From Adhaeribacter arboris (GTDB taxonomy: Bacteria > Bacteroidota > Bacteroidia > Cytophagales > Hymenobacteraceae), in assembly GCF_003023845.1 (NCBI RefSeq), contig NZ_PYFT01000001.1, positions 5,642,001-5,706,000 on the forward strand: a stretch of 64,000 bases of DNA, given 5' to 3'. The notes beneath the pieces were generated by a model. The model did not search any database. It was not told where the DNA came from and saw only the letters and a list, made by a program, of their open reading frames with translations. A program made the position numbers and the translations under genes. Shown piece after piece: positions 19,619-35,917 of the stretch (positions are counted from its first letter, which is position 1; each line of letters opens with the position of its first letter).

Positions 19619-19870
19619 GCGCTTTTCTGGGTTGAGTGAGGAGAAGGTAGGTTTTATCTATGTCTCTAAGGCTGTTTGCTAAATAGTTTAAATCATTTGC
19701 TTTATAGAGTTATATTTAATCTATCTAAAAATATTCAAGTAGATGATTGTATAATTGGTCTTCGATATATTTACTTGCGGATATTGTAGTAATGGAGAAT
19801 TTAGCCAGAATTCTGAAATTTAACAGATTCGTATTTAGCAAAAACAAAACTAATCCTCCGTACATAATGC

Positions 19871-19908
19871 AGATAACGGGAACAGTTCCTTTTATCTGCT
19901 AGTTACCT
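19871..19908 (+). other. Palindromic recombination-like site opening the left cassette block
   Basis: Contains GCAGATAA (19869-19876) pairing with TTATCTGC (19892-19899), with GGAACAGTTCC at the centre, then TAGTT and ACCT. It matches 32175-32212 read on the minus strand at 28 of 33 positions up to and including GTT, then the two diverge at once. Its GTTACCTTC (19902-19910) is repeated in reverse complement at 20413-20421. I read it as the upstream attachment site (attI- or attC-like) of an integron-like array. Confidence 0.6.
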
Positions 19909-19917
19909 TCAATTTTA

Positions 19918-20400
19918 ATGATAACAGATAAAGAAGGAATAAATGGTAGCCAAAACTGGTTCAACGGCTATATCGACAAAATTGAGAAGGCTACAGGCCA
20001 AAATCATAAAAAATTTGGCGACTTCTTTCTCTGCCCTTGTTGCGGCTACCCAACTTTGACGGAAAGAGTAGCTTGGGATATATGCGTTCTATGCCACTGG
20101 GAAGATGACGGACAAGATGACCCGCATGCGCATGAAGTCTGGGGAGGGCCTAACTCAAACTACTCACTTTCGGAAGCACGCGAGAACTTCAGGAAACACT
20201 ACACTATGTATCGACCTTCTGACGAACGTGCTTTCAGTAACGGGAGAGTAAGAAAGAGCTCATCAGGTAAACTATTACTAGATAAGGTTGCCCTGAAGAA
20301 ATCAATAATAGAGAGGTACCAGCAACTCTTCAACACAACAGATGAAAAGCAGATACAGAACCTGTGGCGGGAGATTGAAAAGCTTGAGAAGAAACTATAG
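19918..20400 (+). CDS. CPCC-type cysteine-rich protein
   Basis: A 160-residue protein with the CPCC domain: FFLCPCCGYPTLTER, then ICVLCHWEDDGQDDP and HEVWGGPNSNYSLSEARENF. The CPCC plus C-x-x-C cysteines probably bind zinc. The C-terminal 40 residues are charged and helical. CPCC proteins are small, often solitary accessory genes of unknown function. ATG 19918 lies 16 bases after the upstream recombination-like core GTT, and the stop lies 15 bases before the downstream attC-like site, as in a promoterless gene cassette. Confidence 0.85.
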   Translation: MITDKEGINGSQNWFNGYIDKIEKATGQNHKKFGDFFLCPCCGYPTLTERVAWDICVLCHWEDDGQDDPHAHEVWGGPNSNYSLSEARENFRKHYTMYRPSDERAFSNGRVRKSSSGKLLLDKVALKKSIIERYQQLFNTTDEKQIQNLWREIEKLEKKL

Positions 20401-20412
20401 AAAGAAAAAACA

Positions 20413-20482
20413 GAAGGTAACAACACCTAAACGTCAGTCTCGGCCGACGGCCTCGCCCGTCGTTTAGCCCAGTACGTTACCA
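20413..20482 (+). repeat. attC-like site A (68-bp class)
   Basis: Outer boxes GGTAAC (20416-20421) and GTTACC (20476-20481) are complementary; inner stem CTAAACG (20427-20433) pairs with CGTTTAG (20461-20467). The loop holds a 21-nt core at 20441-20461 beginning CGGCCGACGG, shared with sites at 20866-20886 and 31642-31662 (two mismatches to the former). The core-to-GTT spacing is 14 nt in all three. GAAGGTAAC (20413-20421) is the exact complement of the cassette start at 19902-19910. The YYY/RRR positions of textbook attC are not matched. Confidence 0.7.
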
Positions 20483-20508
20483 TAAATTTTAAACATAGAA
20501 TCTTTATA

Positions 20509-20772: not shown

Positions 20773-20839
20773 CCTATAAATAGAGTTCCAGACTAAGGCT
20801 AAACTACTTAATCATACTTGCCTATAACAAAAAAACTCG

Positions 20840-20907
20840 TGCCAACAATGTATAAACTTCACCCTCGGCCGACGGCCTTGCGCGTCGTTTATACGCGGCC
20901 GTTGGAA
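20840..20907 (+). repeat. attC-like site B (68-bp class)
   Basis: Outer CCAAC (20842-20846) pairs with GTTGG (20901-20905); inner GTATAAAC (20850-20857) pairs perfectly with GTTTATAC (20887-20894). The 21-nt core at 20866-20886 is shared with site A and the site at 31642-31662 (two mismatches to each). Spacings (19 nt before, 14 nt after the core) equal those of site A. It follows the 21-residue-repeat gene by 67 bases. Confidence 0.7.
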
Positions 20908-20926
20908 AGTCAAATAATAAAAAGTA

Positions 20927-21280
20927 GTGATTAGACAGCTTTACATGATTCTAAACTTCATCATTTTAATCTCTGTTAGTCAACTGTTGCTCTATCTAAT
21001 TATAGATAAACTAAATTTTAGATATGGAAAAGTTTTAATACTAACTTTAATATTAGTAGGGCATTTTTTTATTTTCCCTAAGTATTTTTACCCAGAACCT
21101 AATTCAGACGGAGTTAATTGTGGTATGCCAGTTTTAGGAATTACCTTTGCGTTTTGGGTATTTGGCAGTGCTATTACCTTGTTAGTGCATTCCATTTATT
21201 CTTTCATAAAAAATAGAATAAACCCCCTACTCACAACAATAGCTAAACACATTCAATTGTGTCTTAGTCCAGTACATTAG
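20927..21280 (+). CDS. Small membrane protein, unknown function
   Basis: A 117-residue protein with three hydrophobic segments (about 5-25, 33-55, 67-92), a periplasmic-type loop YFYPEPNSDGVNCGMP and a basic C-terminal tail. Start may be GTG 20927 or ATG 20945 (111 residues); neither has an obvious ribosome site. It follows the GTT of site B by about 25 bases, so it may be the next cassette of the array, but no closing site with the expected complement is visible after it. Not recognised. AT-rich compared with the core genes. Confidence 0.55.
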   Translation: MIRQLYMILNFIILISVSQLLLYLIIDKLNFRYGKVLILTLILVGHFFIFPKYFYPEPNSDGVNCGMPVLGITFAFWVFGSAITLLVHSIYSFIKNRINPLLTTIAKHIQLCLSPVH

Positions 21281-21321
21281 GCTCCGTCAGGAGAAACGAA
21301 AATGCGAGACAATCGATTAAT

Positions 21322-21722: not shown

Positions 21723-21725
21723 AAA

Positions 21726-22433: not shown

Positions 22434-22470
22434 AGTAGCAATAAAGTTTACTGATTTACCCTCTCCGTTG

Positions 22471-22697: not shown

Positions 22698-22801
22698 AAC
22701 ATATTTAAGCGAGCAAGTGCAAGTCTCCTCAAACAAATTGGTTTAACTAGCTATTCTCTTTCTGTGGACTATGGTCTATTGACCATCGACTATCGACTAA
22801 T

Positions 22802-23542
22802 TCACCTGCCGGCAATTTCGAGAACGTGGGTATACTTTTTAAGGGAACGCAGAATGAGAAACAGAACTGTACCTAAACCAAATACAATCTGCCAAAATTT
22901 ATCTACCTGAAAACGATGGTGCACCATTAAATGACTTAGAGCATTGAGGGCAGTAAACGAGATGACCATGGCAAACAAACCGTTGTATTCGCGTTTTAAC
23001 ACGTTACGCAACGAAAAAGGCAGGTTAGAAGAACGCCAGCCACTGAACCGGGGAAAAAAGGCCGGGGTTTGGCGCGCCCAGTTTTCGTAGGCACTAGAGT
23101 AGCTGCGGCGCAAAAACTCTTCTTCGGCAAACATTATGCGTTCGTAGTACAGCCAGTAAGCCAGAGCGCAAATTACCACAAACCACCAGATACCCATAAA
23201 CAGAAACAAGCCCAGCCACATTAAAAAATTACCTAAATACAAAGGATGGCGCACCACCGAGTAAATACCGGTATGGTTTAAACATTCGGCAATTTGTTTG
23301 TCGGTGTTGCGGCCGGAAGTACCTTTAGGCGTGTGCCCCACGGTAATGGCCCGAATAAATAAACCCACCAGCGATATAAGCAGGCAAAATGCGCCCCACA
23401 AAGTGCTGGTAACGCAGGCATAAGTTTTCTCCGGATAAAAATAAAGCAAGGCAATGGCTAACGGATAAAGTAACAGGGGCAACCAGCCTCTTCGCCGGAA
23501 TAACCAGTTACCGGAACTCTCAAATTCTTCTCTTAATGGCAT
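22802..23542 (-). CDS. Isoprenylcysteine/phospholipid methyltransferase family membrane protein
   Basis: A 246-residue integral membrane protein. After an N-terminal RRRGW stretch come helices at about 20-40, 45-65, 105-145; the SAM-binding signature of the ICMT/PEMT family is present as IYSVVRHPLYLGNFLMWLG (about 92-110) and YERIMFAEEEFLRRSYSSAY (about 133-152). The C-terminal 70 residues add two more helices. Such enzymes methylate isoprenylcysteine, phospholipids or small substrates; the bacterial substrate is unknown. ATG start at 23542. Confidence 0.8.
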   Translation of the reverse strand: MPLREEFESSGNWLFRRRGWLPLLLYPLAIALLYFYPEKTYACVTSTLWGAFCLLISLVGLFIRAITVGHTPKGTSGRNTDKQIAECLNHTGIYSVVRHPLYLGNFLMWLGLFLFMGIWWFVVICALAYWLYYERIMFAEEEFLRRSYSSAYENWARQTPAFFPRFSGWRSSNLPFSLRNVLKREYNGLFAMVISFTALNALSHLMVHHRFQVDKFWQIVFGLGTVLFLILRSLKKYTHVLEIAGR

Positions 23543-23807
23543 TCGCTCAAACTAATTACAGCAAGATAAATAACGTATCCTGCCCAACCCACACGGCTGA
23601 TTAGAACCCAAAACTAGGCAAAATACTACATAACTAAACGGAAAGTTTTTCGATTAGAGGGGTTAAAAATGAAATAAAATTAATGAGGCTAAAAATTTAT
23701 TCACGGATAGGTAAGCTGTTTGTAAGGCAAACCAGAATTTAGCCGGGTATTTTAGCGGCCTAGCTTTCTCTTCTTGTCCTCGTCCGGAAAGCAGAATTAT
23801 TACCTGT

Positions 23808-25874
23808 TTACTGGCTTGCCGCTGGTACAGATTCAACTGCCTGGTACAGGTTTTGGAGGTACGAATAAGTAGCAAATTGCGCCCGGGTTTCTTTACCATC
23901 ATTCCGCAGGTATTTATTTTGAATAGTACGGGCTTTGGTATTGTCGCGCAGTTGTAATTCGATTAGGTGGCGTACTTCCCGGCGTAAAGCTTCGTCGAAC
24001 AAAGGAAACCCAACTTCTACCCGGCGGCTCAAGTTACGGGTCATCCAGTCGGCGGAGGCAATGTACATTTTTTCGTTGCCGTTATTGCCGAAAATAAACA
24101 CGCGGGCATGTTCCAGGTAACGGTCTACGATACTGCGCACGTGAATATTCTCGCTTAAGTTTTTTACGCCCGGGTTCAGGCAGCAAATTCCCCGTACAAT
24201 TAAATCGATGCGCACGCCGGCCGCGCTGGCTTCGTATAATTTTAAAATCATAGCTTCGTCTTGCAGCGAATTCATTTTTAAGATTAAGTAGGCCGCTAAA
24301 CCTTTTTGCGCATTTTTAATTTCTTTATTAATCAGTTTTACAAACTTGTTACGCATGTTAAAGGGTGCCACCAGCAAGTGGCGGAACTGCTTATTAGAGT
24401 CGCGGTCCAGGAAAAACTGAAATACGCTTTGTACTTCTTTTGTCAGACGAACATCGCTGGTAAACAAACCGTGGTCGGCGTAAATGCGCGAGGTTTTTTC
24501 GTTGAAATTACCAGTACTTAAATACGCGTAGTCTACCGGTCCGTTTTTCTCTTGCCGCGTTACCAGGCATAGCTTACCATGCACTTTGTAGCCCGGTAAA
24601 CCCGGAATAACGGTTGCCCCGGCTTTTTCTAGTTTGCGCGCCCAATTAATATTAGATTCTTCGTCGAAGCGGGCTTTTACCTCCACTATTACCGTTACTC
24701 TTTTGCCTTTTTTGGCGGCTTTTACCAAAGCTTTGGCCACCTTCGATTTATCGGCCACCCGGTATAAAGTGGCACTTACGGCAGTAACCGCCGGATCAGC
24801 GGCGGCTTCGTTCAGAAACTGCAATACGTATTCGAAGGACTGGTACGGATAATGGAGTAAGAAATCTTGCTGGTAAATGGCCGGGAGTAATTTTTTTTGG
24901 TTGTGCAATTCCGGATGCGGTAAAGCAGGCTGCGGCAAATACTTTAAGTGCGTTAAATTAAAATCCGGAAAGCCAAAAAAATCGCGAAAATTATGGTAAC
25001 GGCTACCCCTTACCAACTCTTCGGAGGTAATATGGATCAGCCGGCAAATAGCGTCGATGAGTAAAGGAGGAGTGGCGCTGTCGTAGAGCAGGCGCGAGGG
25101 ATAACCCATTTCGCGCTTCTTCAGGCTGCGTTTAATTTTGGCTAGTAAATTCTCGGAAACTTCTTCTTCCATATCCAGTTCAGCGTCGCGGGATATTTTA
25201 ATGGCATAGGCCGTAGCTGAATCGTACTCCGGAAATAGTTGCAGTAAATTAAACCGGATCACATCGTCCAAAAACATGACAAAATGCTCGGCTTGCTGAG
25301 TAGGCAATGCTACGAAACGGCTGCCGTGTTTTTGGGTGGGTACTTCCAGAATAGCGGTAGCAGCTGGTTGCCCGGCTTGGGTAAGCTCGATTAATAAATA
25401 AAGCGTTTGATCTTTCAGGAAAAAGAAATTTACTTCTGGGGTAAGCAGCACCGGCTTTAATAATTCTTGTACTTTTAGGGCAAAATAATCCCGGACGAAG
25501 GGTTCCTGCTCCGGCCGGAGGGTTTTTTCGTCGAGTAAATATATTTTTTCGGCGCGTAAAGCGGGCAAAATCTGGTTACGGAAAGTTTCGCCTAGTTTTT
25601 CCTGCTGGCGGGCTACTTCAACTAAAACCTGGTCTAATTCTTCGCTCGGGTCTTGGGCCAATTTCTGACGGGTGCGTTTTTTAAGCTGAATTAGCCGTTT
25701 GAGCGTAGCCACGCGCACTTTAAAATACTCATCGAGGTTCGAAGAGAAAATAGCCAGAAACTGAATCCGCTCCAACAAAGGCACCGAAGCATCTTTGGCT
25801 TCCTGCAACACGCGGTAATTAAAAGCCAGCCAGCTAAGTTCGCGACTCTGAATTTTCTTATTCTCTTCCATCAC
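23808..25874 (-). CDS. ppk1: Polyphosphate kinase 1
   Basis: A 688-residue enzyme polymerising ATP gamma-phosphate into polyphosphate, normal length. The N domain begins SRELSWLAFNYRVLQEA; the middle has HVRSIVD-type and ATVIPGLPGYKVHGKLCLV with the autophosphorylated His (about residue 430); the C-terminal half shows STGNFNEKTSRIYADHGLF and a second His motif DRYLEHARVFIFGNNG. Two adjacent ATGs (25874, 25871). The histidine phosphatase gene ends 76 bases upstream on the same strand, a common pairing suggesting a phosphate/polyphosphate operon. Confidence 0.95.
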   Translation of the reverse strand: MMEENKKIQSRELSWLAFNYRVLQEAKDASVPLLERIQFLAIFSSNLDEYFKVRVATLKRLIQLKKRTRQKLAQDPSEELDQVLVEVARQQEKLGETFRNQILPALRAEKIYLLDEKTLRPEQEPFVRDYFALKVQELLKPVLLTPEVNFFFLKDQTLYLLIELTQAGQPAATAILEVPTQKHGSRFVALPTQQAEHFVMFLDDVIRFNLLQLFPEYDSATAYAIKISRDAELDMEEEVSENLLAKIKRSLKKREMGYPSRLLYDSATPPLLIDAICRLIHITSEELVRGSRYHNFRDFFGFPDFNLTHLKYLPQPALPHPELHNQKKLLPAIYQQDFLLHYPYQSFEYVLQFLNEAAADPAVTAVSATLYRVADKSKVAKALVKAAKKGKRVTVIVEVKARFDEESNINWARKLEKAGATVIPGLPGYKVHGKLCLVTRQEKNGPVDYAYLSTGNFNEKTSRIYADHGLFTSDVRLTKEVQSVFQFFLDRDSNKQFRHLLVAPFNMRNKFVKLINKEIKNAQKGLAAYLILKMNSLQDEAMILKLYEASAAGVRIDLIVRGICCLNPGVKNLSENIHVRSIVDRYLEHARVFIFGNNGNEKMYIASADWMTRNLSRRVEVGFPLFDEALRREVRHLIELQLRDNTKARTIQNKYLRNDGKETRAQFATYSYLQNLYQAVESVPAASQ

Positions 25875-25949
25875 AATTTAAGGTAAATCGCCGATAGCCT
25901 TACGCAGAAAAGCCCCTGAAGAGTTAAGTAAAAGAAGAAAATGTATAAA

Positions 25950-26444
25950 TTATTTGTGGTTTTTCGGGAAATCATAAAAAAGAAGAGCCGCATTTTCCTG
26001 ATTAATCTCTTTCCAAGAAAGGCAGGTAAAACGTAGGCTTACGACTGCGGCCGTCGGCATATCCACAATATGTTCCGGCGATAACATATTCGCCAAGTCG
26101 GAAATATCCGGGTTATGGCCGACCAGCATCAGGCTATCGACAGCATCGGACGTTTTCTGAATAATGCGGTATAATTCTTCTTTGCTGGCGCCGTAAATAT
26201 TTTCGTCGATTACCATTCTGCTGGTTTCGTAGTCTAGTTCTTTGGCTACCAGCGAGGCGGTAGTAAGCGCCCGCACCGCCGAACTGGAAATAATCAAATC
26301 CAGTTCTATGTCGCGCGATAATAATTCCCGACCGATTAAAGGAGCGTCGTGGCGGCCCCGGTTATTCAAAGGCCGGTCGTGGTCGCTGAGTTCTTCAAAA
26401 TTCCAACTCGATTTCGCGTGCCGAAGCAGGTATAAGGTTTTCAT
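25950..26444 (-). CDS. SixA-like histidine phosphatase
   Basis: A 164-residue protein from ATG 26444, directly giving MKTLYLLRHAKSSWNF with the RHG-type phosphohistidine His; the upstream TTG 26471 is not needed. Further motifs: DHDRPLNNRGRHDAP, SSSAVRALTTA and VGHNPDISDLAN with the second catalytic His. SixA-type phosphatases dephosphorylate phosphohistidine in phosphorelay proteins. It precedes ppk1 on the same strand with 75 bases between, so co-transcription is likely. Confidence 0.88.
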   Translation of the reverse strand: MKTLYLLRHAKSSWNFEELSDHDRPLNNRGRHDAPLIGRELLSRDIELDLIISSSAVRALTTASLVAKELDYETSRMVIDENIYGASKEELYRIIQKTSDAVDSLMLVGHNPDISDLANMLSPEHIVDMPTAAVVSLRFTCLSWKEINQENAALLFYDFPKNHK

Positions 26445-26844
26445 AGGCGAGGCTTTAAGGGTTGAAGGCAAGGTAAAGTGCCGGTTAAATTAGAAAATCT
26501 TATTCAAAAAGATACTACCCGCTATTGCTCTCTATACTGTTAGGGTTTAGAAATTGTTATAAAGGCAAAGAAGCAGACAACTACTAGCTAAAGAATGAAC
26601 AACTCCTTGCGGCAACCTTGTAGTAGGTTAGTTAGAAAAAAACCTTTCTTTAAATCCTGGTGTCAGCCGCATTGGTTGAATTACCCTGATAATGGTTTGT
26701 GCTTTTCTTCGGAACATTATTGCTCGTATATCCTAGCTTTTTTTTACCTAACCCTTTAATTAGCATCTATAAAAGTGGGTGATGCAGACGTGGGCTGGCC
26801 TACATCTCCCGGATGAAGCAATTGTTTTTTAATTTTATTTCACC
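26445..26844. other. Gene-free stretch
   Basis: 400 bases between the phosphatase start and the RibD-type reductase end. No ORF, tRNA or strong hairpin seen. It should hold the promoter of the phosphatase-ppk1 unit, which I cannot place. Confidence 0.5.
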
Positions 26845-27438
26845 TTAAGCGCCAACAGTTCCCGTCTTAACTTCCCCGGCTCGCTGGTAATGGGCAATAA
26901 TAACGCCCGTGGAGGTAACAGTACTTTCGGTTAAGGTAAATGCAGCCGGAATTGGACCGTTGTCAAATAATTTTTTTCCTTCGCCCAGCGTTAACGGGTG
27001 AATCATGAGCCAGAGTTCGTCGACTAAATCATGCTTTAATAGTAGCTGAATGAGCTGGCTGCTGCCCCAAACTTTCATGTCAGAACCATCGGAATTTTTG
27101 AGCTTTTCGATATCCGCCAGGCTTTCCAGGAAAACGGAGTTTTCCCAATCTGACTTTTTCAGGGTCGTGGACAAAACGTATTTTGTAACCTCATTAATAC
27201 CCGGCCAGCGATCGGCATGTTCGGGCCAGAAGTTCTCCCAAATCTCAAATGTTTGTCTGCCCAAAAGCAGATCGGCCGGTTTCATGAGTTTTTCCATGAA
27301 CTTGCCACCAACTTCGTCGCCATAAGGCGCCACCCAACCGCCGTATTGGAAGCCGCCGGAGGTGTCTTCTTCCGGTCCGCCAGGTGCTTGCATTACCCCA
27401 TCTAACGTAATCATGGATAGCACAATTATTTTTCGCAT
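26845..27438 (-). CDS. Dihydrofolate reductase-like (RibD C-terminal domain) protein
   Basis: A 197-residue protein of the RibD_C/YyaP family: MRKIIVLSMITLDGVMQAPG, LLLGRQTFEIWENFWPEH, LSTTLKKSDWENS, VWGSSQLIQLLLKHDLVDEL and IHPLTLGEGKKLF. The fold is that of dihydrofolate reductase with NADPH binding, but the substrate of stand-alone members is usually unknown. Length and both termini are normal. An IS3 element sits only 7 bases before the start codon, so its native promoter and ribosome site have been displaced. Confidence 0.85.
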   Translation of the reverse strand: MRKIIVLSMITLDGVMQAPGGPEEDTSGGFQYGGWVAPYGDEVGGKFMEKLMKPADLLLGRQTFEIWENFWPEHADRWPGINEVTKYVLSTTLKKSDWENSVFLESLADIEKLKNSDGSDMKVWGSSQLIQLLLKHDLVDELWLMIHPLTLGEGKKLFDNGPIPAAFTLTESTVTSTGVIIAHYQRAGEVKTGTVGA

Positions 27439-27489
27439 ATTATTTTGTCAGCTTCCCGTTTTTAGAACTGGGTAAAAGTATAAATTTGT

Positions 27490-28302
27490 TTAAGTGGATA
27501 ATAGTAGGTCAAGTTGTTTTTTTCTGGCGAACTCCATAGGTGCCATTCCGGCTAAAGCATCATGGGGTCTTTTATAATTGTAATCCTGTAACCACCCTGT
27601 TGTAATTTCTCTTACCTCCTCGAGGTTCTCAAATAAGTAAGCATCTAAAACATGCCGGCGAAAAGTACCGTTAAACCGTTCCACAAAGGCATTCTGCGTC
27701 GGCTTGCCGGGTTGGATAAAGACAAACTCAATTCCATGTATCTGGCTCCATTCAGTCATTAAGGTAGCCATAAACTCTGGCCCATTATCCATTCTAATCC
27801 GCTTAGGTTTTTCCCTACGTTTAATCAAATGATTCAGCACCCAGACTACCCGGTTGCTTTTTAAGGAGAAATCCACTTCCATATGCAAGGCTTCCCGATT
27901 GTAATCATCCAACACATGGAAGGAGCGGAACTTTCTGCCATTCAGTAAAGCATCACTCATAAAGTCAATCGACCAGGTATGGTTTAACTCTTTCGGCACC
28001 TGTAAAGGCTGTTGAATACGGGCCGGCAATCGCTTTTTCGCTTTGCGCCGCAGGTTTAAGCCCAAGGCTGTGTAGATGCGGTGGACCCGTTTATGATTCC
28101 AAGGCTGTCCTTCCTGGCGTAATCGTCCAAAAGCCTTCCAGAAGCCTTCTCGGGGGTGTTGCTCGGCTTTCTGCCGTAAAGCTTGCTCTACTGGCTGATC
28201 CTCTTTATGCGATTGATAGTAATACACCGACTTACTTAAGTTTAATACCCGGCACGCCCTGCTGATGCCGGCCTGAGGCTGCTGATGTACTTCTTGCACC
28301 AT
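27490..28302 (-). CDS. IS3-family transposase OrfB (DDE integrase)
   Basis: 270-residue catalytic subunit. HTH_21-type N-terminal region ([17 protein letters not shown]), then the rve integrase core with the DDE triad: first Asp in [11 protein letters not shown], second Asp in [12 protein letters not shown], Glu in [20 protein letters not shown]. Functional transposase is expected as an OrfAB fusion by -1 slippage: the -1 frame after the slippery site reads [14 protein letters not shown] into this ORF without a stop. The initiator annotated here is the first in-frame ATG and may not be used alone. Confidence 0.93.
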
Positions 28303-28322
28303 CTGGCGCTTCTGACAGGGCT

Positions 28323-28589
28323 TCAGAGCTTTTTTTCAATAATCTCCTTAGCTAGCTTCAGGTCCAAAGCTAGTTCCGCGTACATGGCTTTGAGCCGTCG
28401 GTTCTCTTCTTCTAAGTCTTTGAGCCGCTTGAGCTCGGTCGCATCCATGCCATTGTAGCGCTGACGCCACTTGTAAAAAGCCGCTTGGCTCACACCATGC
28501 TCCCGGCTAATATCAGCGGCACTTTTGCCTTCCTCAAACTCCTTGAGGATTTTGGCAATTTGTTGGGGAGTGAAGGTTTTCCTTTTCAT
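28323..28589 (-). CDS. IS3-family OrfA (helix-turn-helix) with programmed -1 frameshift site
   Basis: 88 residues: [20 protein letters not shown], helix-turn-helix ([19 protein letters not shown]) and a leucine-zipper-like helix ([20 protein letters not shown]). The last codons GAA AAA AAG CTC TGA contain the classic slippery heptamer A AAA AAG at 28335-28329; slipping back one base bypasses the stop and enters the OrfB frame. OrfA alone usually represses; OrfAB transposes. Confidence 0.93.
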
Positions 28590-28653
28590 AAATACTGTTC
28601 TAAGTTAAGATATTTTCTCTTCCGAAACAGTTCTATTTGCGGGGAAGCTGACA

Positions 28654-28991
28654 ATTTTACCTCCTCTTATAATTTATTTTAAAAAGCTTCTTTTAAACTA
28701 ATTTTAGTACGCTACAAATCTAGTTAAGAATACGTTGCCGTACGGGGGGGATGCGACAATTTTGGGGCTAAAAGCGGCAGTATGAAGAAGTAAGTTAGTA
28801 TGAAAGGATTTGTCGCCATCATGCTTTACTGCTACTATTCCAGGGGTATTGCCAAATTCAGGGTTTGGCATTCCTGAAGTAGATTAAAGTTATGTTAATT
28901 ACGAATTGTTCCTAGCTTTAAAAGTAATGCCTTTGCTATTTTTTTGTCTTATTATGCTGGCAGCAATGTTTTTGTTTCCGCTAGTTTTATG
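28654..28991. other. Gene-free stretch beside IS element
   Basis: 338 bases with no supported gene. It begins with the IS target duplication and contains a run of seven G near 28744. The native promoter of the RibD-type reductase gene was probably at the left end of this stretch before IS insertion. GTTTCCG at 28974-28980 may be a relic of a cassette boundary. Confidence 0.45.
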
Positions 28992-29474
28992 CTAGCTCAA
29001 TTGGTAAATAAATTCTTCTATCTCCGTTTTTCGGGCATTGGCAAAGCCTTTGTCTTTGCCAATTTTGACAAAACCACCTTTCTCTAAAACTTTCTGTGAA
29101 CCGAAATTGTCAAAGGCCACTCTTCCGAAAATAGGTCTTGTTTTTTCAACGTTTAAGAAATTTTTAAGGGCCTTTGTGGCCACTCCTTTATTCCAAAACT
29201 TTTTGTCAATCCAATAGGTAATTCCTGCTTCGCCTTTTATTTCAAACTTTGCTATACTTCCTGCAATAATTTTGTCGACAATTATGGTTTGCATATTCAC
29301 CGTTGGGTCGTTCCATAATTTTAAATATTTACTAATGTAGGCTGATTTGTTAGTTGGGTCTACGGAGGTAAATGCAGCTAGGTGATTGGCTTCTTCGTCC
29401 AACTGAAAAATAAAGAATGTCTCTAAATCCTTTGGTTCTGTCGGACGCAAAATAATTTCCATATCGTTTATCAT
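28992..29474 (-). CDS. GNAT acetyltransferase (RimJ/RimL-like)
   Basis: A 160-residue protein of the Acetyltransf_3 type: IILRPTEPKDLETFF at the start, central ITYWIDKKFWNKGVATKALK (acetyl-CoA pyrophosphate loop, Q/RxxGxG/A equivalent NKGVAT) and RVAFDNFGSQKVLEKGGFVKIG at the end. Start ATG 29474 or the internal ATG 12 bases later. Such enzymes are frequent in integron cassettes; this one is last in the minus-strand array, with only a degenerate site after it. Substrate unknown. Confidence 0.82.
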   Translation of the reverse strand: MINDMEIILRPTEPKDLETFFIFQLDEEANHLAAFTSVDPTNKSAYISKYLKLWNDPTVNMQTIIVDKIIAGSIAKFEIKGEAGITYWIDKKFWNKGVATKALKNFLNVEKTRPIFGRVAFDNFGSQKVLEKGGFVKIGKDKGFANARKTEIEEFIYQLS

Positions 29475-29625
29475 TTATTTAACCGGCTTATTTCGCTCTA
29501 AGTCGGTTGTCTAAGAAAACTGTCAAGGGTAACTTTAATAGTGGTTGGGAAGTTTAATATTGCTGGCCACGGCAACGTGCATGCAAAGCTTGCTCCAGCG
29601 CAGCAAGGGTTATATATACCTTTGG

Positions 29626-29925
29626 TTAAGCAGCGTTTTTCTCAAATTTTCTTGTACTTTCTAGCTCTTTCTGCTTGTTTATCATTTCTTGTTCCAAATC
29701 ATAATCATGCTGCAATCCAAGCCAAAATTTCGGAGAATTGCCGAAGTAGCGGCTTAATCTAAGGGATGTATCCGCAGTAATTCTCCTATTGCCTTTCAAG
29801 ATTTCTGATATCCTGGTCTGAGGAATATTTATGTCTTTAGATAACCGGTAAGCCGTAATGTTTAGAGGCACAAAAAATTCTTCTTGCAATACTTCTCCCG
29901 GATGAATATTAGGTAATTTTTCCAT
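29626..29925 (-). CDS. higA: HigA-family antitoxin (XRE helix-turn-helix)
   Basis: 99 residues from ATG 29925 (a TTG at 29943 would overlap the toxin stop). HigA hallmark IHPGEVLQEEFFVPLNITAYRLS followed by the HTH SKDINIPQTRISEILKGNRRIT and TSLRLSRYFGNSPKFWLGLQ. It binds its operator and neutralises HigB. It lies 4 bases after the higB stop, in the usual toxin-first order. Since higB looks broken, it may be an orphan antitoxin. Its stop overlaps the box GTTAAGCA (29625-29632), the candidate start of the cassette's closing site. Confidence 0.9.
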   Translation of the reverse strand: MEKLPNIHPGEVLQEEFFVPLNITAYRLSKDINIPQTRISEILKGNRRITADTSLRLSRYFGNSPKFWLGLQHDYDLEQEMINKQKELESTRKFEKNAA

Positions 29926-29929
29926 TTCT

Positions 29930-30211
29930 TTAATGATAGGCAATGATTTCTACTTCCGAAGATTGTCCGTTGTTCCATTTGAAGATGATTCTCCACTGAT
30001 CGTTTATTCGGATGCTGTAAAATTCCTTCAGAATACCGGACAGCTTTTCTAATCTATTAGAAGGAGGAACCTTCAAGTCCGCTATATTCTGTGAGTTGTT
30101 CAGCATCCTCAATTTACGTCTGCCAATTGCCTGGATTCCTATTTAGAGTTTAGTAACCCGTTCTCCATTCCAAATCTTCTCTGTCTCTTTTGCGCCAAAA
30201 GATATAATTAT
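29930..30211 (-). pseudogene. higB: HigB-family toxin gene, interrupted by TAA and lacking a normal start
   Basis: From 30211 the frame reads (ATA) I-I-SFGAKETEKIWNGERVTKL, then TAA at 30143-30145, then IGIQAIGRRKLRMLNNSQN and a normal HigB C-terminus (VPPSNRLEKLSG, YSIRINDQWRIIFKW, EIIAYH). Together this equals a full HigB of about 94 residues. The position of the expected initiator Met is ATA. The longest intact translation starts at TTG 30112 or ATG 30106 (58-60 residues) and lacks the first helices of this RelE-like mRNA interferase. Loss of toxin activity is inferred. Confidence 0.8.
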
Positions 30212-30292
30212 ACTTCTGCTTTACGATAGTAATGCTAAAAGTAAATATTGTTCTCTGATTTATATTCTGGAAGATAGGTTTTCTTAAATAAT

Positions 30293-30344
30293 GCCTAACG
30301 TTTCTGCTAGGGCACGTTTTAATGTGCTTTAGGTTTTGTTGGGC
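30293..30344 (-). repeat. attC-like site 1 (52-bp class)
   Basis: On the minus strand: R'' GCCCAAC, 5-nt spacer, L'' CTAAAGCAC, loop ATTAAAAC, L' GTGCCCTAG, 7-nt spacer, R' GTTAGGC. R'' fits RYYYAAC and R' fits GTTRRRY, the textbook integron attC boxes; L''/L' pair over 9 positions with two G-T pairs. It starts 11 bases after the lipoprotein stop at 30355. Length and spacing equal site 2. Confidence 0.75.
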
Positions 30345-30354
30345 GCTGATTTGT

Positions 30355-31053
30355 TTAATATACTTTTACTGTATCTTTTCCTATTAAGAAAATACCACCT
30401 CTATTGTACATCCACTTTCTTCCTTTTGCGTCTTTCACAAATTCTTTTCTTATCCATGGGTTTGGAGATTCTTGGCTGTTTGAAATAGAATCAACGATTG
30501 TCCACTTAAGTTCTGAGCTGGTATCTACCAATTTATAAATCTTGTTATTATAGTCAATTATCTTCAATGGCTCATTTGGTTGAGAATAAAAGTCTGCTGG
30601 AAATAACTCTTTGGTATCTAATTCATATGTGATCCAGCTTCTGCCTTTATTATTAGATAAATATAAAGTACTCCGGTCTGCTTCATGTATGCCTTGCCAG
30701 CTATGAATCCCCCATATACGTCCCTCAACGTCTATAGTCATCTTGATGATTAATCCAGGTGTTGCTACTTCATTCCAAGTTTTTCCAGCATCCATTGTCA
30801 GCACCAACCCATTGTACTGTGTTGCGGCAATTAGAGTGTCCTTAGTTATTGGTAGAAGGTCATAAGTTGCAGAGGGATACTTCTTTTTAGCTAATTTCCT
30901 TATTCGAGCAGATTCCTCAATTCTTCTCTTTTCCCATTCTTTACTCCCATAAACTATAATCTTAGAATTAATCTTGTCCTCATCATTTTTCTTTTTGCTA
31001 TTACAGCTAAAAAGAAATAATGTGGTGAAAACCCAAAAGAATATTCCTTTCAT
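30355..31053 (-). CDS. Lipoprotein with BNR-like repeats
   Basis: A 232-residue lipoprotein (MKGIFFWVFTTLFLFSC, lipobox LFSC) with a basic-charged linker and a beta-propeller-like body: GLVLTMDAGKTWNEVATP and LYLSNNKGRSWITYEL are BNR/Asp-box-like (S-x-D/N-x-G-x-x-W). Only two boxes are clear, so this is a partial propeller or a small sensor-like protein. No enzymatic residues identifiable. It is the cargo of a cassette between attC-like sites 2 and 1, with its ATG 13 bases after site 2. Confidence 0.65.
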   Translation of the reverse strand: MKGIFFWVFTTLFLFSCNSKKKNDEDKINSKIIVYGSKEWEKRRIEESARIRKLAKKKYPSATYDLLPITKDTLIAATQYNGLVLTMDAGKTWNEVATPGLIIKMTIDVEGRIWGIHSWQGIHEADRSTLYLSNNKGRSWITYELDTKELFPADFYSQPNEPLKIIDYNNKIYKLVDTSSELKWTIVDSISNSQESPNPWIRKEFVKDAKGRKWMYNRGGIFLIGKDTVKVY

Positions 31054-31065
31054 AATTTAATTAAC

Positions 31066-31117
31066 GCCCAACGTTTTGGCTAAAAGGCGTTTTAATGCTT
31101 TTTAGTTAGTGTTGTAG
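31066..31117 (-). repeat. attC-like site 2 (52-bp class)
   Basis: On the minus strand: R'' CTACAAC, 5-nt spacer, L'' CTAAAAAGC, loop ATTAAAAC (identical to site 1), L' GCCTTTTAG, 7-nt spacer, R' GTTGGGC. Same 52-bp length and spacing as site 1. R'' overlaps the last codons of the 165-residue gene (CTA CAA CAC TAA). R' continues as GTTGGGCGTTAATT, complementary at 12 of 14 positions to the R'' side of site 1. Confidence 0.75.
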
Positions 31118-31603
31118 GTAGTTGTTTTTATTATTTACTTGGATAATGGATTCAAATTTATTCACCAGTCTTCTGGTTGCTCTACGCATTTCAAAATATA
31201 GAATGAAATTGAAGAAGGGCAATAATATTAAAACAAGACCTTTAGGAACTTCTAAAAAAGTGTCAATCCCGAAAAGTTCACCCAAAAAAAGAATAGTGAT
31301 TATGTAAAAGAAGAAGATAAGAACAATGTTAGGTCGACATTTTACCAAAATGCTTGTACCATTTTCCTCTTGTTTTAGCTTTCCGTTTAAATAGGCAGGT
31401 TTAGAACCGAAGCTTCCACTGCCTATTATCATAAAGTTGAAAAAGGTAGTAAACTCAAAGGTGTCATTACTTTTGAAACTTCCTGTAAGGTTATCTGAGT
31501 ATTCGAACCATTTTTTCTCCGCAATAGCTTTGATCCTCGCTCTTACAGTTCCTATAGATTCACGAATTTTATATTCTTCTCTCTCAGTAAATAAAATATC
31601 CAT
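31106..31603 (-). CDS. Small membrane protein, unknown (cassette gene)
   Basis: A 165-residue protein: N-terminal polar domain (1-85, EYKIRESIGTVRARIKAIAE, FEFTTFFNFMIIGSGSF), two membrane helices in succession (about 92-112 and 120-138) and a basic C-terminal helix (EMRRATRRLVNKFES). No family recognised. ATG 31603 lies about 18 bases after site 3 and the stop is inside site 2, an almost gap-free cassette. Confidence 0.6.
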   Translation of the reverse strand: MDILFTEREEYKIRESIGTVRARIKAIAEKKWFEYSDNLTGSFKSNDTFEFTTFFNFMIIGSGSFGSKPAYLNGKLKQEENGTSILVKCRPNIVLIFFFYIITILFLGELFGIDTFLEVPKGLVLILLPFFNFILYFEMRRATRRLVNKFESIIQVNNKNNYLQH

Positions 31604-31620
31604 TTACTTGTTATAATTTC

Positions 31621-31690
31621 CTATAACGGTCTCGTGCATGAGACGTGCAAGGTCGTCGGCCGTAGCATGACTTATGCACTTTGTTGTGGG
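31621..31690 (-). repeat. attC-like site 3 (69-bp class)
   Basis: On the minus strand: outer CCCACAAC (31690-31683) and GTTATAG (31627-31621), inner GTGCAT/ATGCAC stem (31679-31674, 31639-31634), and the 21-nt core at 31662-31642 starting CGGCCGACGACC, two mismatches from site B. Distances from core to boxes are 20 and 14 nt. It follows the 140-residue gene stop by 14 bases. Confidence 0.7.
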
Positions 31691-31704
31691 TAGTGATTCT
31701 TTTC

Positions 31705-32127
31705 CTAAAGCAATCCATTAAATTCACACCCTAAAAACTTTCCTCCTTTTAGCAAGACAGTAACTGTTGGTCCAATTAAAAATATAATCAAAGGGAGTAA
31801 AACTATTAGGCTATAAAGAATGAACTTATTTATTCTTTTCCCTTTATATTTTTTTACCAAATCATAAATGTGCTTATTTCTAATGTACTTTTTATAAACT
31901 ATATAAATTAATAATCCTAAAATGCAGAATATAGTGATGGTCAAGACACTCTTATCATAAGCTAATGAGTTATTGAAGCACAGTTTGTTTACAACTTCAC
32001 TTACAGGAAGATATATACTGAAGAGTAATAGGAAGTAGAAAAAGCTTATGTATAGCGTAATATTAAGTTCCGCAGGCTCTTTCTTCTTTTTATATTCTTC
32101 AAATAGCTTAGCGAAGAAAAAGTCCAT
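31705..32127 (-). CDS. Small membrane protein, unknown (first cassette of right block)
   Basis: A 140-residue protein with an N-terminal charged stretch (LFEEYKKKKEPAEL) and three membrane helices (about 24-45, 60-80, 104-124) separated by basic loops (YKKYIRNKHIYDLVKKYKGKRINK). No family recognised. ATG 32127, 48 bases after the GTT of the opening palindromic site; closing site 3 follows the stop. Confidence 0.55.
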   Translation of the reverse strand: MDFFFAKLFEEYKKKKEPAELNITLYISFFYFLLLFSIYLPVSEVVNKLCFNNSLAYDKSVLTITIFCILGLLIYIVYKKYIRNKHIYDLVKKYKGKRINKFILYSLIVLLPLIIFLIGPTVTVLLKGGKFLGCEFNGLL

Positions 32128-32174
32128 GTATCAGTATTAAGCTAATATAAGTTTCTAAAATTTATTTTCATTAC

Positions 32175-32270
32175 CCACAACTACCGGATATACGGAACTG
32201 TTCCGGTTATCGGCAATATAATTTAGCTACTTATTCCATATATCCGCCCAAAAACAACCGATAACCGGAA
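32175..32270 (-). other. Palindromic recombination-like site opening the right cassette block, inside a larger dyad
   Basis: Minus strand 32212-32175 matches 19871-19908 at 28 of 33 positions up to GTT, including GGAACAGTTCC and the closing TAGTT. Its CCCACAAC (32174-32181 on +) repeats as the complement of site 3's outer box. The same sequence is part of a larger dyad: TTCCGGTTATCGG (32201-32213) with its complement 32258-32270, and CGGATATA (32185-32192) with TATATCCG (32239-32246). Confidence 0.6.
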
Positions 32271-32379
32271 TAGATCTTATATACTTTTAAATGTACCGAA
32301 AGCTTTACAGACTAATAAAGTTTAAAATATATGGCAGTAAAAAGTTTCTAAAAATAAAAGTGCCAACTAGATCCGCAAC

Positions 32380-33525
32380 TTATTGCTTAATACCATACTT
32401 ACGCAAGTCGGCGTCGATGCGGCTGTTCCAGGCTTCTTGGGCCCCAGAGTTGGTGCCGTGGCCGGTTTCACCATCGTACTTTTCCTGCATCCGGTTCATT
32501 TCCCGGAACGATTCGATAAATTTGTACTGCACCATGCTGTTATAATCGTTCAGGGTTAAACTATCGGGTTGAATTTTGCGCTTGAAGCGCTCGGCTACCA
32601 GTTTTACAATATCGAAGTGCCGTTGTTCGTGGTTTAAGCTGTAGGCATCGCGGGCGGCATCTTTCACCCACGACGAGCTCCGGATTACGTATACTTTTAC
32701 GGTTAAATTCAACTGAATCACGCCGTTTACTACTTCGCTGCCCCCTTGGTAAGCAAAACTCGGGAAAACCAAGGCGGCATATTTCCCGCCGCGAGGCGTA
32801 GCCGTAAAATCATTCCACTTTAAAGGGCGGTTAGGCGTGTAAAAAACGGTATCATCTTCGGCGTCGCGAATGTAATCCGTAAAATTCACCTGAATACCGG
32901 TGGCGAGTTTTTCATTTCGGCCGGCTTCCTGGTCCATCCAAATGTTAATGTACCTTATTCCGGCAATTAACGACTGGCGCAAAGTTGGTTCTATCACCGA
33001 AAAAGAATTTGCCGGCCGGCTGTAACGAGCGCCGCCCCGGTATTCTACCAAGTGCACCGGTTTACCTTCGCGCCGGTAATCATAAGCCAGCGCAATAGTA
33101 ATTTTACCCTCTACCCGGCCTTTCGTAGCACCAGGAGTTTCTACCACTTTACATTCTTTCAGGCGAATAATGAGAGGGCGTAGTTTATTGTTCTGAGACC
33201 AACTGCGCTGAATAAATTCGCGGATTCCTGCCAGGCCACCTCCTTGTAAATCTACGGGTTGGGGAGTGGTAGGCAAAGGTAAACCGGGCGAGGCCGGAGT
33301 TGGTATTAAATACGCAACCGCTTTGCGGTCTTCGCGTTCGTCTTTTACTTCGGCAATATAAAATTCTTTGGGAGTAAACGGTAGGGGCGCGGGGCGTAAA
33401 ACAATAGGCGCCATTTTTACGGTAGGTTGCCGGGCAGCGCCGCAAACCAAGGTAAGTACTATAAGTAACCAGGTGGCAATTCTATAACGAGCGATTAATA
33501 CGTTTGTCCTTTTCTGTAGCAACAA
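32380..33525 (-). CDS. DUF922 family putative secreted zinc protease
   Basis: A 381-residue exported protein: N-terminal hydrophobic segment (about 10-30, IATWLLIVLTLVCGAA), a beta-rich domain of about 150 residues with an RxLKWNDF motif (RPLKWNDFTATP), and a C-terminal DUF922-type domain with the putative zinc-binding HEQRH in LNHEQRHFDIVKLVAE, plus LTLNDYNSMVQYKF. DUF922 proteins are predicted Zn-dependent proteases; activity is not proven. Periplasmic or lipid-anchored location is likely. Monocistronic, divergent from pta. Confidence 0.75.
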   Translation of the reverse strand: MLLQKRTNVLIARYRIATWLLIVLTLVCGAARQPTVKMAPIVLRPAPLPFTPKEFYIAEVKDEREDRKAVAYLIPTPASPGLPLPTTPQPVDLQGGGLAGIREFIQRSWSQNNKLRPLIIRLKECKVVETPGATKGRVEGKITIALAYDYRREGKPVHLVEYRGGARYSRPANSFSVIEPTLRQSLIAGIRYINIWMDQEAGRNEKLATGIQVNFTDYIRDAEDDTVFYTPNRPLKWNDFTATPRGGKYAALVFPSFAYQGGSEVVNGVIQLNLTVKVYVIRSSSWVKDAARDAYSLNHEQRHFDIVKLVAERFKRKIQPDSLTLNDYNSMVQYKFIESFREMNRMQEKYDGETGHGTNSGAQEAWNSRIDADLRKYGIKQ

Positions 33526-33826
33526 GGTAAATTTATTTTTAAATAGATATGTCGTTTATAACGAAAATGCCGGAAGAATAATCTTATAACTCAAGCAAAT
33601 AAACGCGTGCCATCTTATTCGGGTCCGGCGACTTAAAAACATTTACGGCTTTAATTCGGTTCGTTCCTGTAAACTTGCCCGGTGGCGATGATGGATTATA
33701 TTTATTTGGGAAAAATCAGCCTTGGGTCATTCATTAAAACTAGTTCGCTAAAAACTAAAAAGACTTTAACGTAGTATGAAGCCATATTCTTACTATTGCC
33801 GCTATTATGTCTAAACGATCAGCTCT
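33526..33826. other. Divergent intergenic region
   Basis: 301 bases between the divergent DUF922 and pta genes. It must carry both promoters; no clear repeat, hairpin or RNA motif was seen. Confidence 0.5.
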
Positions 33827-35917
33827 ATGACTAAATCCATTTTTATTGCGTCGGCCGAACCTTACAGTGGTAAATCGTTGGTAGCACTAGGTTTGGTGAA
33901 CATGCTGCTGGGGAAAGCGCAAAAAATCGGTTATTATAAACCAATTATTCAGTCCAATCCGGCCGAGAAGAAGGATGTGCATATCCAAACCATTGTGAAT
34001 TATTTTAATCTGCCGGTACAATACTCCGATACTTTTGCTTTTACGGGTCAGGAGGTACTGCGCCTGATTGAAGCGGATAACGAAGGAGAAATTATTGATA
34101 CCATTATCGGTAAGTTTAAGCAGTTCGAAGAAAACTACGATTTTACGGTAGTAGAAGGAACCGACTTTGTGGGCGAAGGAACGGCGTTTGAGTTTGATAT
34201 CAATGTAATGGTAGCCAAAAACCTGGGCATTCCAATTATTTTGGTGGTGTCCGGCGAACGTAAAACGACGGCTCAGGTAATTAATTCGGTATTAACTACT
34301 TTGCGCAATTTTGAGGCACGGGAACTGCAAATTATAGCCCTCATTGCCAATAAAGTGAACCCGGAGCAAGCTACGGATGTGCGCGAATTATTACAGGATC
34401 AGTTACCTCCCGGTTTAATAGTTACGGTAATTCCGGACGATATAAGTTTAAAAAACCCGACCATGCGGGAAATTCACGAAAACCTGGGCGGCAAATTACT
34501 TTTTGGGGAAGAGCAACTCACCAACCAGGTAGATAATTTTGTGACCGGAGCGATGCAAGTGCCGAATTTTTTGAAACATATAAAAGATAACGTACTCATT
34601 GTTACCCCCGGCGACCGCGGCGACATTATTATTTGCGCCTTGCAGGCCAATCTCTCGGCTAATTATCCCCGCATTGCCGGAATTGTGCTTACCGCCGGCT
34701 CCGAACCCGAAGAACCTATTTTGCGCTTGATCGAGGGGTTACAAACCGTAGTACCTATAATTGCGGTAAAAACCGGTACTTTCCAAACCACCACCGAAGT
34801 AGGAGCTATTAAATCACAGATTACCCCGGATAATACCAAAAAGATTGAACTGGCCATTGATACTTTCGAGAAATACGTGGATGTGGCCGCCCTGGATCAA
34901 AAGATCATCACGTTTACGCGCGAAGGTATTACGCCGCACATGTTTCAGTACCAATTGGTGAAATGGGCCAAAAGCCAGAAGAAACACATTGTGCTGCCCG
35001 AAGGCAACGACGACCGCATTTTGCGGGCCGCCGCCAGACTGATTAACCAGGAAATTGTGGATTTAACTATCCTGGGCAATGCGGCCGAAATGGCCGCCGC
35101 CGTAAAACGCATGGGCTTGCCCTTGGATATGAGCCGGGTGCGGATTATTGATCCGGCGGAATCGGAATACTACGAAGAATACGTGCAGACTTTATACGAA
35201 CTCCGGAAAAATAAAAACGTGGAGCTGGAAATGGCTTACGACCTGATGACGGACGTTTCGTATTTCGGTACCATGATGGTGTACAAAGGCCACGCCAACG
35301 GGATGGTTTCCGGGGCGGTGCATACTACTTTGCATACCATTCGGCCAGCCTTGCAGTTCGTGAAAACCAAACCCGGAGTTTCCATTGTGTCGTCGGTGTT
35401 TTTTATGTGTTTGCCCGACCGGGTATCCGTTTTTGGGGATTGTGCCGTTAACCCGAACCCTACCGCCGAACAACTAGCCGAGATTGCCATTTCATCCGCC
35501 GAAAGCAGTCAACGTTTTGGGATTGAGCCGCGGATAGCCATGCTCTCGTATTCGTCGGGTACTTCCGGCGAGGGCGAAGAAGTAGAAAAAGTGCGCCGGG
35601 CTACCGAAATAGTGAAGCAAAAACGTCCTGATTTAAAAGTTGAAGGACCTATTCAATACGATGCGGCCGTAGACCCGGTAGTGGGCAAACAAAAATTGCC
35701 CAATTCTGAAGTAGCGGGCCAAGCCAGTGTACTCATTTTTCCGGATTTAAACACGGGTAATAACACCTACAAAGCTGTGCAACGCGAAACTGGTGCTCTG
35801 GCCATTGGCCCCATGCTGCAAGGCCTGAACAAACCGGTAAACGATTTAAGCCGCGGCTGTACCGTGGATGATATTTTTAACACGGTGGTGATTACCGCGA
35901 TTCAAAGCCAAGGATAG
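33827..35917 (+). CDS. pta: Phosphate acetyltransferase (long form)
   Basis: A 696-residue enzyme interconverting acetyl-CoA and acetyl phosphate. Long-form layout: N-terminal P-loop dethiobiotin-synthetase-like domain (SAEPYSGKSLVALGL at 8-22), DRTGG domain (about 215-330), and the catalytic PTA_PTB domain (about 365-690) with IVLPEGNDDRILRAAARL, NPTAEQLAEIAISSAES, SYSSGTSGEGEEVEKV and VDPVVGKQKLPNSEVAGQA. ackA follows 325 bases later on the same strand, separated by an inverted-repeat element. Together they form the acetate overflow/acetyl-phosphate pathway. Confidence 0.95.
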   Translation: MTKSIFIASAEPYSGKSLVALGLVNMLLGKAQKIGYYKPIIQSNPAEKKDVHIQTIVNYFNLPVQYSDTFAFTGQEVLRLIEADNEGEIIDTIIGKFKQFEENYDFTVVEGTDFVGEGTAFEFDINVMVAKNLGIPIILVVSGERKTTAQVINSVLTTLRNFEARELQIIALIANKVNPEQATDVRELLQDQLPPGLIVTVIPDDISLKNPTMREIHENLGGKLLFGEEQLTNQVDNFVTGAMQVPNFLKHIKDNVLIVTPGDRGDIIICALQANLSANYPRIAGIVLTAGSEPEEPILRLIEGLQTVVPIIAVKTGTFQTTTEVGAIKSQITPDNTKKIELAIDTFEKYVDVAALDQKIITFTREGITPHMFQYQLVKWAKSQKKHIVLPEGNDDRILRAAARLINQEIVDLTILGNAAEMAAAVKRMGLPLDMSRVRIIDPAESEYYEEYVQTLYELRKNKNVELEMAYDLMTDVSYFGTMMVYKGHANGMVSGAVHTTLHTIRPALQFVKTKPGVSIVSSVFFMCLPDRVSVFGDCAVNPNPTAEQLAEIAISSAESSQRFGIEPRIAMLSYSSGTSGEGEEVEKVRRATEIVKQKRPDLKVEGPIQYDAAVDPVVGKQKLPNSEVAGQASVLIFPDLNTGNNTYKAVQRETGALAIGPMLQGLNKPVNDLSRGCTVDDIFNTVVITAIQSQG

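Follow-up and report, generated by a model that had tools for sequence, protein, structure and literature searches.

Classical integrons are characterized by attC sites with R'' and R' boxes and by a junction of the form G^TT. The I2 helix is described, in the available part of PMC7790495, as an acquisition that let integron integrases go from double- to single-strand recombination, and surveys, according to the accessible sections of PMC9668308, recognise IntI by its IntI-specific domain. According to the accessible text of PMC8138268, conservation of the IntI insertion is incomplete within an 'integron-like subgroup' of tyrosine recombinases. Among Bacteroidetes proper, the available portion of the IntegronFinder 2.0 paper (PMC9024848) names one complete integron, that of Salinibacter ruber.

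The window, i.e. the whole stretch of 64,000 nucleotides of Adhaeribacter arboris DNA that was analysed, contains two sites which an earlier sequence-only reading had proposed to be of attC type. Both are present as described, at positions 30293-30344 and ~31066-31117, with the same length of 52 nt, spacers of 5 and 7 nt, the identical 8-nt loop ATTAAAAC and inner stems that differ in sequence. On the minus strand, site 1 reads GCCCAAC-AAAAC-CTAAAGCAC-ATTAAAAC-GTGCCCTAG-CAGAAAC-GTTAGGC and site 2 reads CTACAAC-ACTAA-CTAAAAAGC-ATTAAAAC-GCCTTTTAG-CCAAAAC-GTTGGGC. The 9-bp stems proposed for them hold on the plus (bottom) strand only, with two and one G.T wobbles, respectively, the minus strand being incompletely paired. 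Site 1 fits the consensus boxes RYYYAAC and GTTRRRY, as had been noted, and the R'' box of site 2 (CTACAAC) departs from the former. The lipoprotein gene between them (30355-31053) is separated from the sites by 10 and 12 bases and not by the 11-13 given earlier.

A generic scan of the window for boxes and stems revealed no overall excess (252 candidates versus 213-271 in five shuffles), so the generic form by itself says little; among the candidates listed, only site 1 had all 14 box letters. A search pattern derived from sites 1 and 2 occurred twice in the 7.25-Mb genome, both times at these sites, and its reversed control had no match there; it matched none of 149 other genomes of the family, being too strict. 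Thirteen short sites, sites 1 and 2 included, were used to build a covariance model. With up to 150 candidates scored in each genome, it matched all eight genomes of the genus at E<=0.1, with at least 44 matches in the present one. Further members in the Hymenobacteraceae, whose existence the sequence-only reading had anticipated, are thus found, and the model also matched stretches behind the integrase of Pontibacter, Rufibacter and Sabulibacter. Its counts are partial, attC 3, hairpin B and the attC of genome G024 having escaped it. Two other repeats were seen elsewhere in the window, namely a perfect 27-bp inverted repeat with a 4-nt loop (60314-60371) and a 69-nt inverted repeat, 77% complementary, with arms 148 nt apart (54985-55270).

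Features of the two cassette arrays in the window; coordinates are window positions, and features marked 'by eye' were assigned by inspection.
Feature	Position	Strand	Remarks
Second attI-like site, start of plus-strand array	19864..19904	+	Palindrome 19872-19896, GTT at 19902
First plus-array cassette, 160-aa CPCC-domain protein (Pfam PF14206)	19903..20476	+	Start GTTACCTTC matches R'' GAAGGTAAC
attC A	20414..20482	+	Covariance model match, 34.0 bits
attC-like hairpin B	20840..20907	+	Missed by covariance model
attC-like site, altered R' (ATTAGGC)	21230..21282	+	Covariance model match, 34.7 bits
Probable next cassette, HTH gene 29626-29943 with its upstream stretch	29626..30298	-	Starts at GTTAGGCATT of site 1
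attC site 1	30293..30344	-	3' end of lipoprotein cassette; R'' 30344-30338, R' 30299-30293
Lipoprotein cassette, 773 bp	30299..31071	-	Ends set from G^TT positions
Lipoprotein gene, 232 aa	30355..31053	-	Third cassette of array
attC site 2	~31066..31118	-	3' end of 165-aa cassette; R' (GTTGGGC) is the lipoprotein cassette start
Cassette with 165-aa protein, membrane protein by eye (31106-31603)	31072..31626	-	
attC site 3, longer loop	31621..31693	-	3' end of 140-aa cassette; missed by covariance model
Cassette with 140-aa protein, membrane protein by eye (31705-32127)	31627..32180	-	First after attI
attI-like site of minus-strand array	32182..32245	-	Core palindrome 32187-32211, then G^TT at 32181-32179

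The two sites, which flank the small lipoprotein gene, have the appearance of true mobile-cassette ends, and this is supported by the arrangement of the array on the minus strand, the cassettes of which all have the same direction. The attI palindrome is followed by GTTGTGGGTA, the 140-aa gene and attC 3 with R'' CTACCCACAAC; then come GTTATAGG, the 165-aa gene and attC 2 with R'' CCTACAAC; finally GTTGGGCG, the lipoprotein gene and attC 1 with R'' GCGCCCAAC lead to GTTAGGC. Each R'' box was compared with the start of its own cassette: that of site 3 agrees at 10 of 10 letters, that of site 2 is one letter off, and that of site 1 pairs with the cassette start at site 2 at all five variable letters. 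The R'' boxes of attC 1 and 2 are incompletely complementary to the adjacent R' box. An R'' that matches the start of its own cassette, and not the neighbouring R', is as expected from cutting and joining between G and TT. At the far end of the array, where the 3' end of the probable HTH cassette would lie, no convincing matching R'' was seen within the next 4.2 kb. In the plus-strand array, hairpin B, at the second cassette, violates the rule, as its R'' fits its own R' and not the preceding cassette start. Neither array has an adjacent integrase gene. The lipoprotein has no relatives besides itself in the GTDB contigs or the eight genomes of the genus, and only a sub-threshold Sortilin-Vps10 match in Pfam. 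Among the small genes on the minus strand, an IS3-like element (27490-28589; two ORFs, by eye) lies in the same direction, and a stretch of 1.2 kb with 82.5% identity is found 3.3 kb downstream of an attI in genome G009 (L060).

The agreement between R'' and the start of its own cassette was also assessed in bulk. From three sets of matches 139 sites were parsed, and 123 remained for the comparison once 16 without exact AAC and GTT had been dropped. Of 38 neighbouring pairs at most 1 kb apart, 32 agree at four or more of the five variable letters and 27 at all five; the control values are 14.4% against all R' boxes and 11.4% for the two boxes of one site. The agreement falls to 4/10 pairs at 1-1.5 kb and to 3/22 beyond 1.5 kb, misses that would fit undetected intervening sites. 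A cassette consists of a gene and an attC of ~50-75 nt, sometimes ~130 nt. What looks like a second, longer attC class is a common stretch of ~130-140 bp at about +649 in L046, +1108 in L060 and +5060 in L042, relative to the palindrome; loci L179, L184 and L192 contain covariance model matches of about this length.

Hairpins that directly follow stop codons and can form stems could also act as terminators of transcription or as RNA structures in the gaps of what would be a mere small-gene cluster. In that case the sense strand should carry the hairpin; the bottom strand, however, was the more stable one in 69 of 72 non-redundant sites, as calculated with DNA folding parameters. The wobble-type mismatches in the stems of 71 of these sites (one was dropped for a weak stem) point the same way, since 61 of 65 are A.C on the coding strand and hence G.T only on the bottom strand (p 4e-14), leaving four that pair on the sense strand. 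The covariance model derives from the coding strand, and any bias of its own ought to be towards G.U on that strand, opposite to what was observed. Neither the agreement of the boxes nor the copies cut at GTT described below would be explained by terminators, and Rfam gave no match at E<=1 in window positions 18000-34000. The bias in folding and wobble pairs contradicts conservation as terminators or mRNA structure, and we regard this explanation as hardly credible. Together, boxes, sequence and folding energy point to attC-type sites, i.e. single-strand folds with the bottom strand preferred. On that strand site 1 is predicted to fold into a 7-bp R stem, spacers of 7 and 5 nt, an 11-bp stem and a 4-nt loop; the lowest-energy fold of site 2 contains the inner stem and lacks the R stem. 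The extrahelical bases of classical attC sites are mostly absent: 67 of the 72 sites have at least eight of nine pairs without a bulge, a count to be read with the fact that the model used tolerates few insertions and thus favours bulge-free stems, and allowing a bulge adds two or more pairs in only two sites.

If the sites are cassette ends, cassettes should have moved with their boundaries at GTT. Twenty pairs of stretches with 94-100% identity were found among 15 loci of this genome; one of them (L110/L108, 1694 bp) looks unrelated to cassettes and was set apart. In the remaining 19, several of which share the same cassette and the ends of which were judged by eye, 16 right ends lie at GTT, give or take one letter. 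The left ends lie at GTT in 12, continue through a common attI in two and fall within ~15 bases in two more; one is cut by the limit of the compared stretch, and two lie elsewhere. The same cassette stands directly after attI in some arrays and internally in others, one attC is present in five copies, the sequence beyond GTT differing in each, and a cassette of L047 is the second behind an attI in G024 (84%). In this sister species the window locus has the same upstream gene followed by the same kind of attI-like site, at ~81-82% identity over the stretch. The alignment stops there ~20 bases past GTT, and a different cassette follows, encoding 182 aa and having its own matching R''. These comparisons indicate that the unit of movement is the cassette, bounded by G^TT junctions, some pairs ending elsewhere. 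The attC-type reading of both sites is thereby supported by box agreement, bottom-strand folding, copies cut at GTT and exchange at the orthologous attI, the same observations that contradict the reservation in the sequence-only reading that the hairpins might serve only as terminators and never mark insertion boundaries. In G003, G009, G029 and G019, no attI or cassette was seen in the ~500 bases after the orthologous gene. The covariance model found no match in the fetched orthologous stretches of G003, G009 and G029, one lone match in that of G019, 2.6 kb away on the opposite strand, and none within 1.5-kb flanks in G014 and G034.

The attI-like sites are dispersed. With up to two mismatches, the attI pattern was found at nine separate positions of this genome, including two within the window, at four each in G003, G024 and G009, at one in G034 and at none in G019 and G029; a match in G014 lies within gene-like sequence and was left out of the count. 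Inspection of 20 of these sites showed GTT within six bases in 19 and, in L056, after a second palindrome. A relaxed scan, which also returned clearly spurious matches, gave six further candidates chosen by eye (L108, L109, L110, two in L112, and L115), bringing the number in this genome to ~15. Upstream of attI at L055 and L058 of G024 lies a gene resembling, by eye, a serine resolvase, with neighbouring sequence common to both loci; this is a possible hint to the dispersal of attI.

Only one strict attI site of this genome adjoins an integrase gene, and the two have the same direction. The gene is intact and encodes a tyrosine recombinase of 480 aa (C1:6676229-6677665). Where present, the integrase gene lies directly upstream of attI in the direction of the cassettes. 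It has eight matches in six of the eight genomes of the genus, several copies being broken, and six of these matches are followed within ~200 bp by the palindrome, GTT and a gene, as judged by eye; a second integrase fragment in G029 and the decayed second copy of this genome are not. At up to four mismatches the attI pattern recognised only the site behind this genome's copy, because the palindromes differ, and the five other cases in the genus were seen by eye. A scan of GTDB contigs revealed at least 565 stretches encoding relatives of the integrase, from which 79 loci were kept, 22 with close and 57 with distant relatives. A junction [AT]AGTT[AG] stands 123-150 nt after the stop codon in 20 of the 22 close relatives, compared with 32 of 2107 control windows; of the two exceptions, L141 reads GTG at the junction and the contig of L145 ends too early. 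At the same distance, four of the 57 distant relatives have it. As to a possible cassette promoter Pc, a TATATTA-like stretch was seen by eye just after the integrase stop in many close relatives.

Cassettes themselves are also found on one side of the integrase. All 37 covariance model matches (E<=0.5) in the 79 loci lie on the integrase strand and 36 of them downstream. Linked cassette ends were further counted independently of the model in flanks of at least 600 bp (56 of 79 downstream, 77 of 79 upstream), one linked end being countable with more than one next GTT. For close integrases there were 68 in 82 kb downstream versus 3 in 114 kb upstream, and for distant ones 91 in 152 kb versus 21 in 283 kb. 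Only the upstream flanks serve as control, because the pattern reads similarly on both strands and minus-strand counts are not independent. Chains of two or more cassettes occur downstream in 11/19 close and 13/37 distant flanks, and upstream in 0/21 and 1/56, respectively; those downstream include Cesiribacter, Aestuariivivens and other Flavobacteriales. The 4/57 junctions and 13/37 chains mean that the link between integrase and cassettes is weaker in distant relatives. Outside Bacteroidota, a covariance model match of 38.6 bits was recorded in the cyanobacterium Adonisia turfae (L185, 9338-9392), on the integrase strand and downstream of a 43%-identical integrase.

The identity of this integrase was examined with curated profiles, structure and phylogeny. 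The best profiles were NF040815 (208 bits, cut-off 220) and the integron integrase TIGR02249 (201 bits in a split match, cut-off 265), and the protein falls far under the cut-offs of XerD (191 bits against 329.6) and XerC (190 against 335.15); the genome's own XerD is a separate gene. The catalytic residues R, K, H, R, H and Y are present in 46 of 46 sequences of the new family. The I2 region comprises 28-29 residues in all 46 versus 59-70 in 12 IntI sequences, and the region between the same flanking helices has 35-37 residues in XerD and 30-35 in XerC. Against the structure 2A3V the unaligned stretch is ~19 residues in the new integrase versus 62. An AlphaFold model (pLDDT 83.9) contains no helix in the IntI-specific region; the part that holds the catalytic Tyr, residues 447-463, is modelled poorly. 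In Foldseek, XerA came first by E-value, and of the top ten 2A3V scored highest by target TM-score. By sequence and by model, the IntI-specific domain with its I2 helix is absent, and the protein is not an IntI. It has an extra N-terminal half that consists of two similar repeats by secondary structure and matches no Pfam domain.

A quick tree, from which one row with a stop and seven cut rows had been dropped, separated the new family and IntI from XerC/XerD with an SH-aLRT of 100, without fixing the root or which of these two branches first; neither by clade nor by curated cut-off is the integrase a housekeeping XerC or XerD. The tree drew IntI nested inside the new family, which we do not claim, since the likelihood was 5 units higher (p-AU 0.599) with the new family constrained to one clade, and since IntI sits on a long branch. 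Relatives of the integrase that reach E<=1e-70 are present in 197 of 395 genomes of the class, which sets an upper limit on how common the system is. Among 395 sampled genomes of the phylum, 106 have a true IntI above the cut-off, and of these only this genome and G186 belong to the same class; in the family the number is 2 of 150 genomes.

One of these IntI-type genes lies in the present genome (L001, C1:1659408-1660301; 297 bits), damaged by an in-frame TAG and with Lys at the first catalytic Arg; it is syntenic with a gene of G024 (L011, 284 bits) that has the same Lys. The arrays might therefore be relics of classical integrons, attC clusters without an integrase that a decayed or distant canonical IntI had moved, with the Xer-like gene beside attI incidental. 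Classical attC sites do have the same box plan, and two genomes, G024 and G009, contain attI sites and cassettes and no match of the new integrase at E<=1e-30. Against this, the covariance model found no match (E<=0.1) in the 16 kb around L001 or in L011, genes of this type are as rare in the family as stated, the attC stems mostly lack extrahelical bases, and it is the I2-less integrase that attI or its GTT junction follows in the genus and among close relatives. As the model finds nothing around L001 and another integrase adjoins attI, the damaged gene was set aside as driver of the arrays, and we hold the relic explanation to be quite improbable.

The two sites are, on what can be read from the DNA, very probably attC sites at the two ends of a single cassette, which would belong to a chromosomal integron whose integrase is I2-less and whose attI sites are many and dispersed. 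The anatomy of the cassettes, their boundaries, the strand bias, the link with the integrase and the absence of the I2 region all argue for this reading. The tyrosine recombinase most likely excises and inserts the cassettes. As in classical integrons, it would act on the bottom strand of folded attC, cutting it between G and TT, and the cut attC would be joined to a double-stranded attI at G^TT. Strand choice may rest on the wobble pattern together with the unequal spacers. Extrahelical bases, which are said in the available part of PMC7790495 to be docked by I2, are mostly missing from the attC stems, so I2 and its ligand are absent together; from this we infer that the lineage may recombine folded attC sites without the docking of extrahelical bases on I2 that IntI uses. 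The one intact integrase would presumably serve the nine strict (~15 relaxed) attI-like sites in trans, and catalysis itself is likewise inferred.

Alternatively, attC and attI could be recombined as ordinary double-stranded sites of Xer type, the hairpin shape merely reflecting two inverted binding boxes. The protein resembles Xer recombinases in its profile matches (NF040815, XerC, XerD) and is without the region held, in the accessible part of PMC7790495, to adapt IntI to folded DNA. The bias of wobble pairs and folding energy towards one strand would then have no reason, however, and R'' and R' of one attC often mismatch (own-site match 11%). We consider double-stranded recombination unlikely and retain the folded bottom strand as the probable substrate.

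Beyond this genome, we lean slightly towards the view that a second integron lineage is widespread in Bacteroidota, with folded single-stranded attC sites without extrahelical bases, an integrase that never had or has lost I2, and one integrase for many attI sites. Judged from the published IntI definition used by IntegronFinder, as given in the available sections of PMC9668308, standard software would miss such a system. If the view is true, surveys overlook a large pool of cassettes, for which the 197 of 395 genomes of the class with integrase relatives give the upper limit. Should the new family branch below IntI, single-strand cassette recombination would have existed earlier than I2 or independently of it, contrary to the current view of how integrons originated. 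Recombination of a folded strand without I2, and the service of many attI sites by one integrase, become testable. Among the titles and abstract openings listed from the open-licence literature, preprints being outside its scope, none described such an I2-less integron system, and the system may be new.

Several described systems share parts of this organization. CALIN elements, clusters of attC sites without an integrase, resemble the window arrays in lacking an adjacent integrase; the window arrays, however, start at attI-like sites that match the integrase-adjacent one, which CALIN need not do. The reverse-orientation integrons of Spirochaetota have, on our reading of the available part of PMC9668308, an integrase co-directed with its cassettes as here, but are described there as carrying IntIs. 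The 'integron-like subgroup' in the accessible text of PMC8138268 differs in that no arrays or attC sites are tied there to members without the insertion; given its incomplete conservation, the new recombinases themselves may already have been catalogued. Xer recombinases (XerA 5hxy and 4a8e, XerD 1a0p) are, alongside IntI 2A3V, what the catalytic half matches best in sequence and in fold, and likewise have no I2, whereas the new family is linked to cassette arrays and is split from XerC/XerD, together with IntI, in the tree. With classical integrons, represented by IntI1 and the Vibrio cholerae integrase 2A3V, the system has in common the box plan, the G^TT junction, cassettes in one direction, attI beside the integrase, bottom-strand folding and a C-terminal SPL motif as in 2A3V. 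It differs from them in an integrase without the I2 region (28-29 versus 59-70 aligned residues) and with an extra N-terminal half, in the common direction of integrase and cassettes, in the many attI sites per genome and in attC stems mostly without extrahelical bases.
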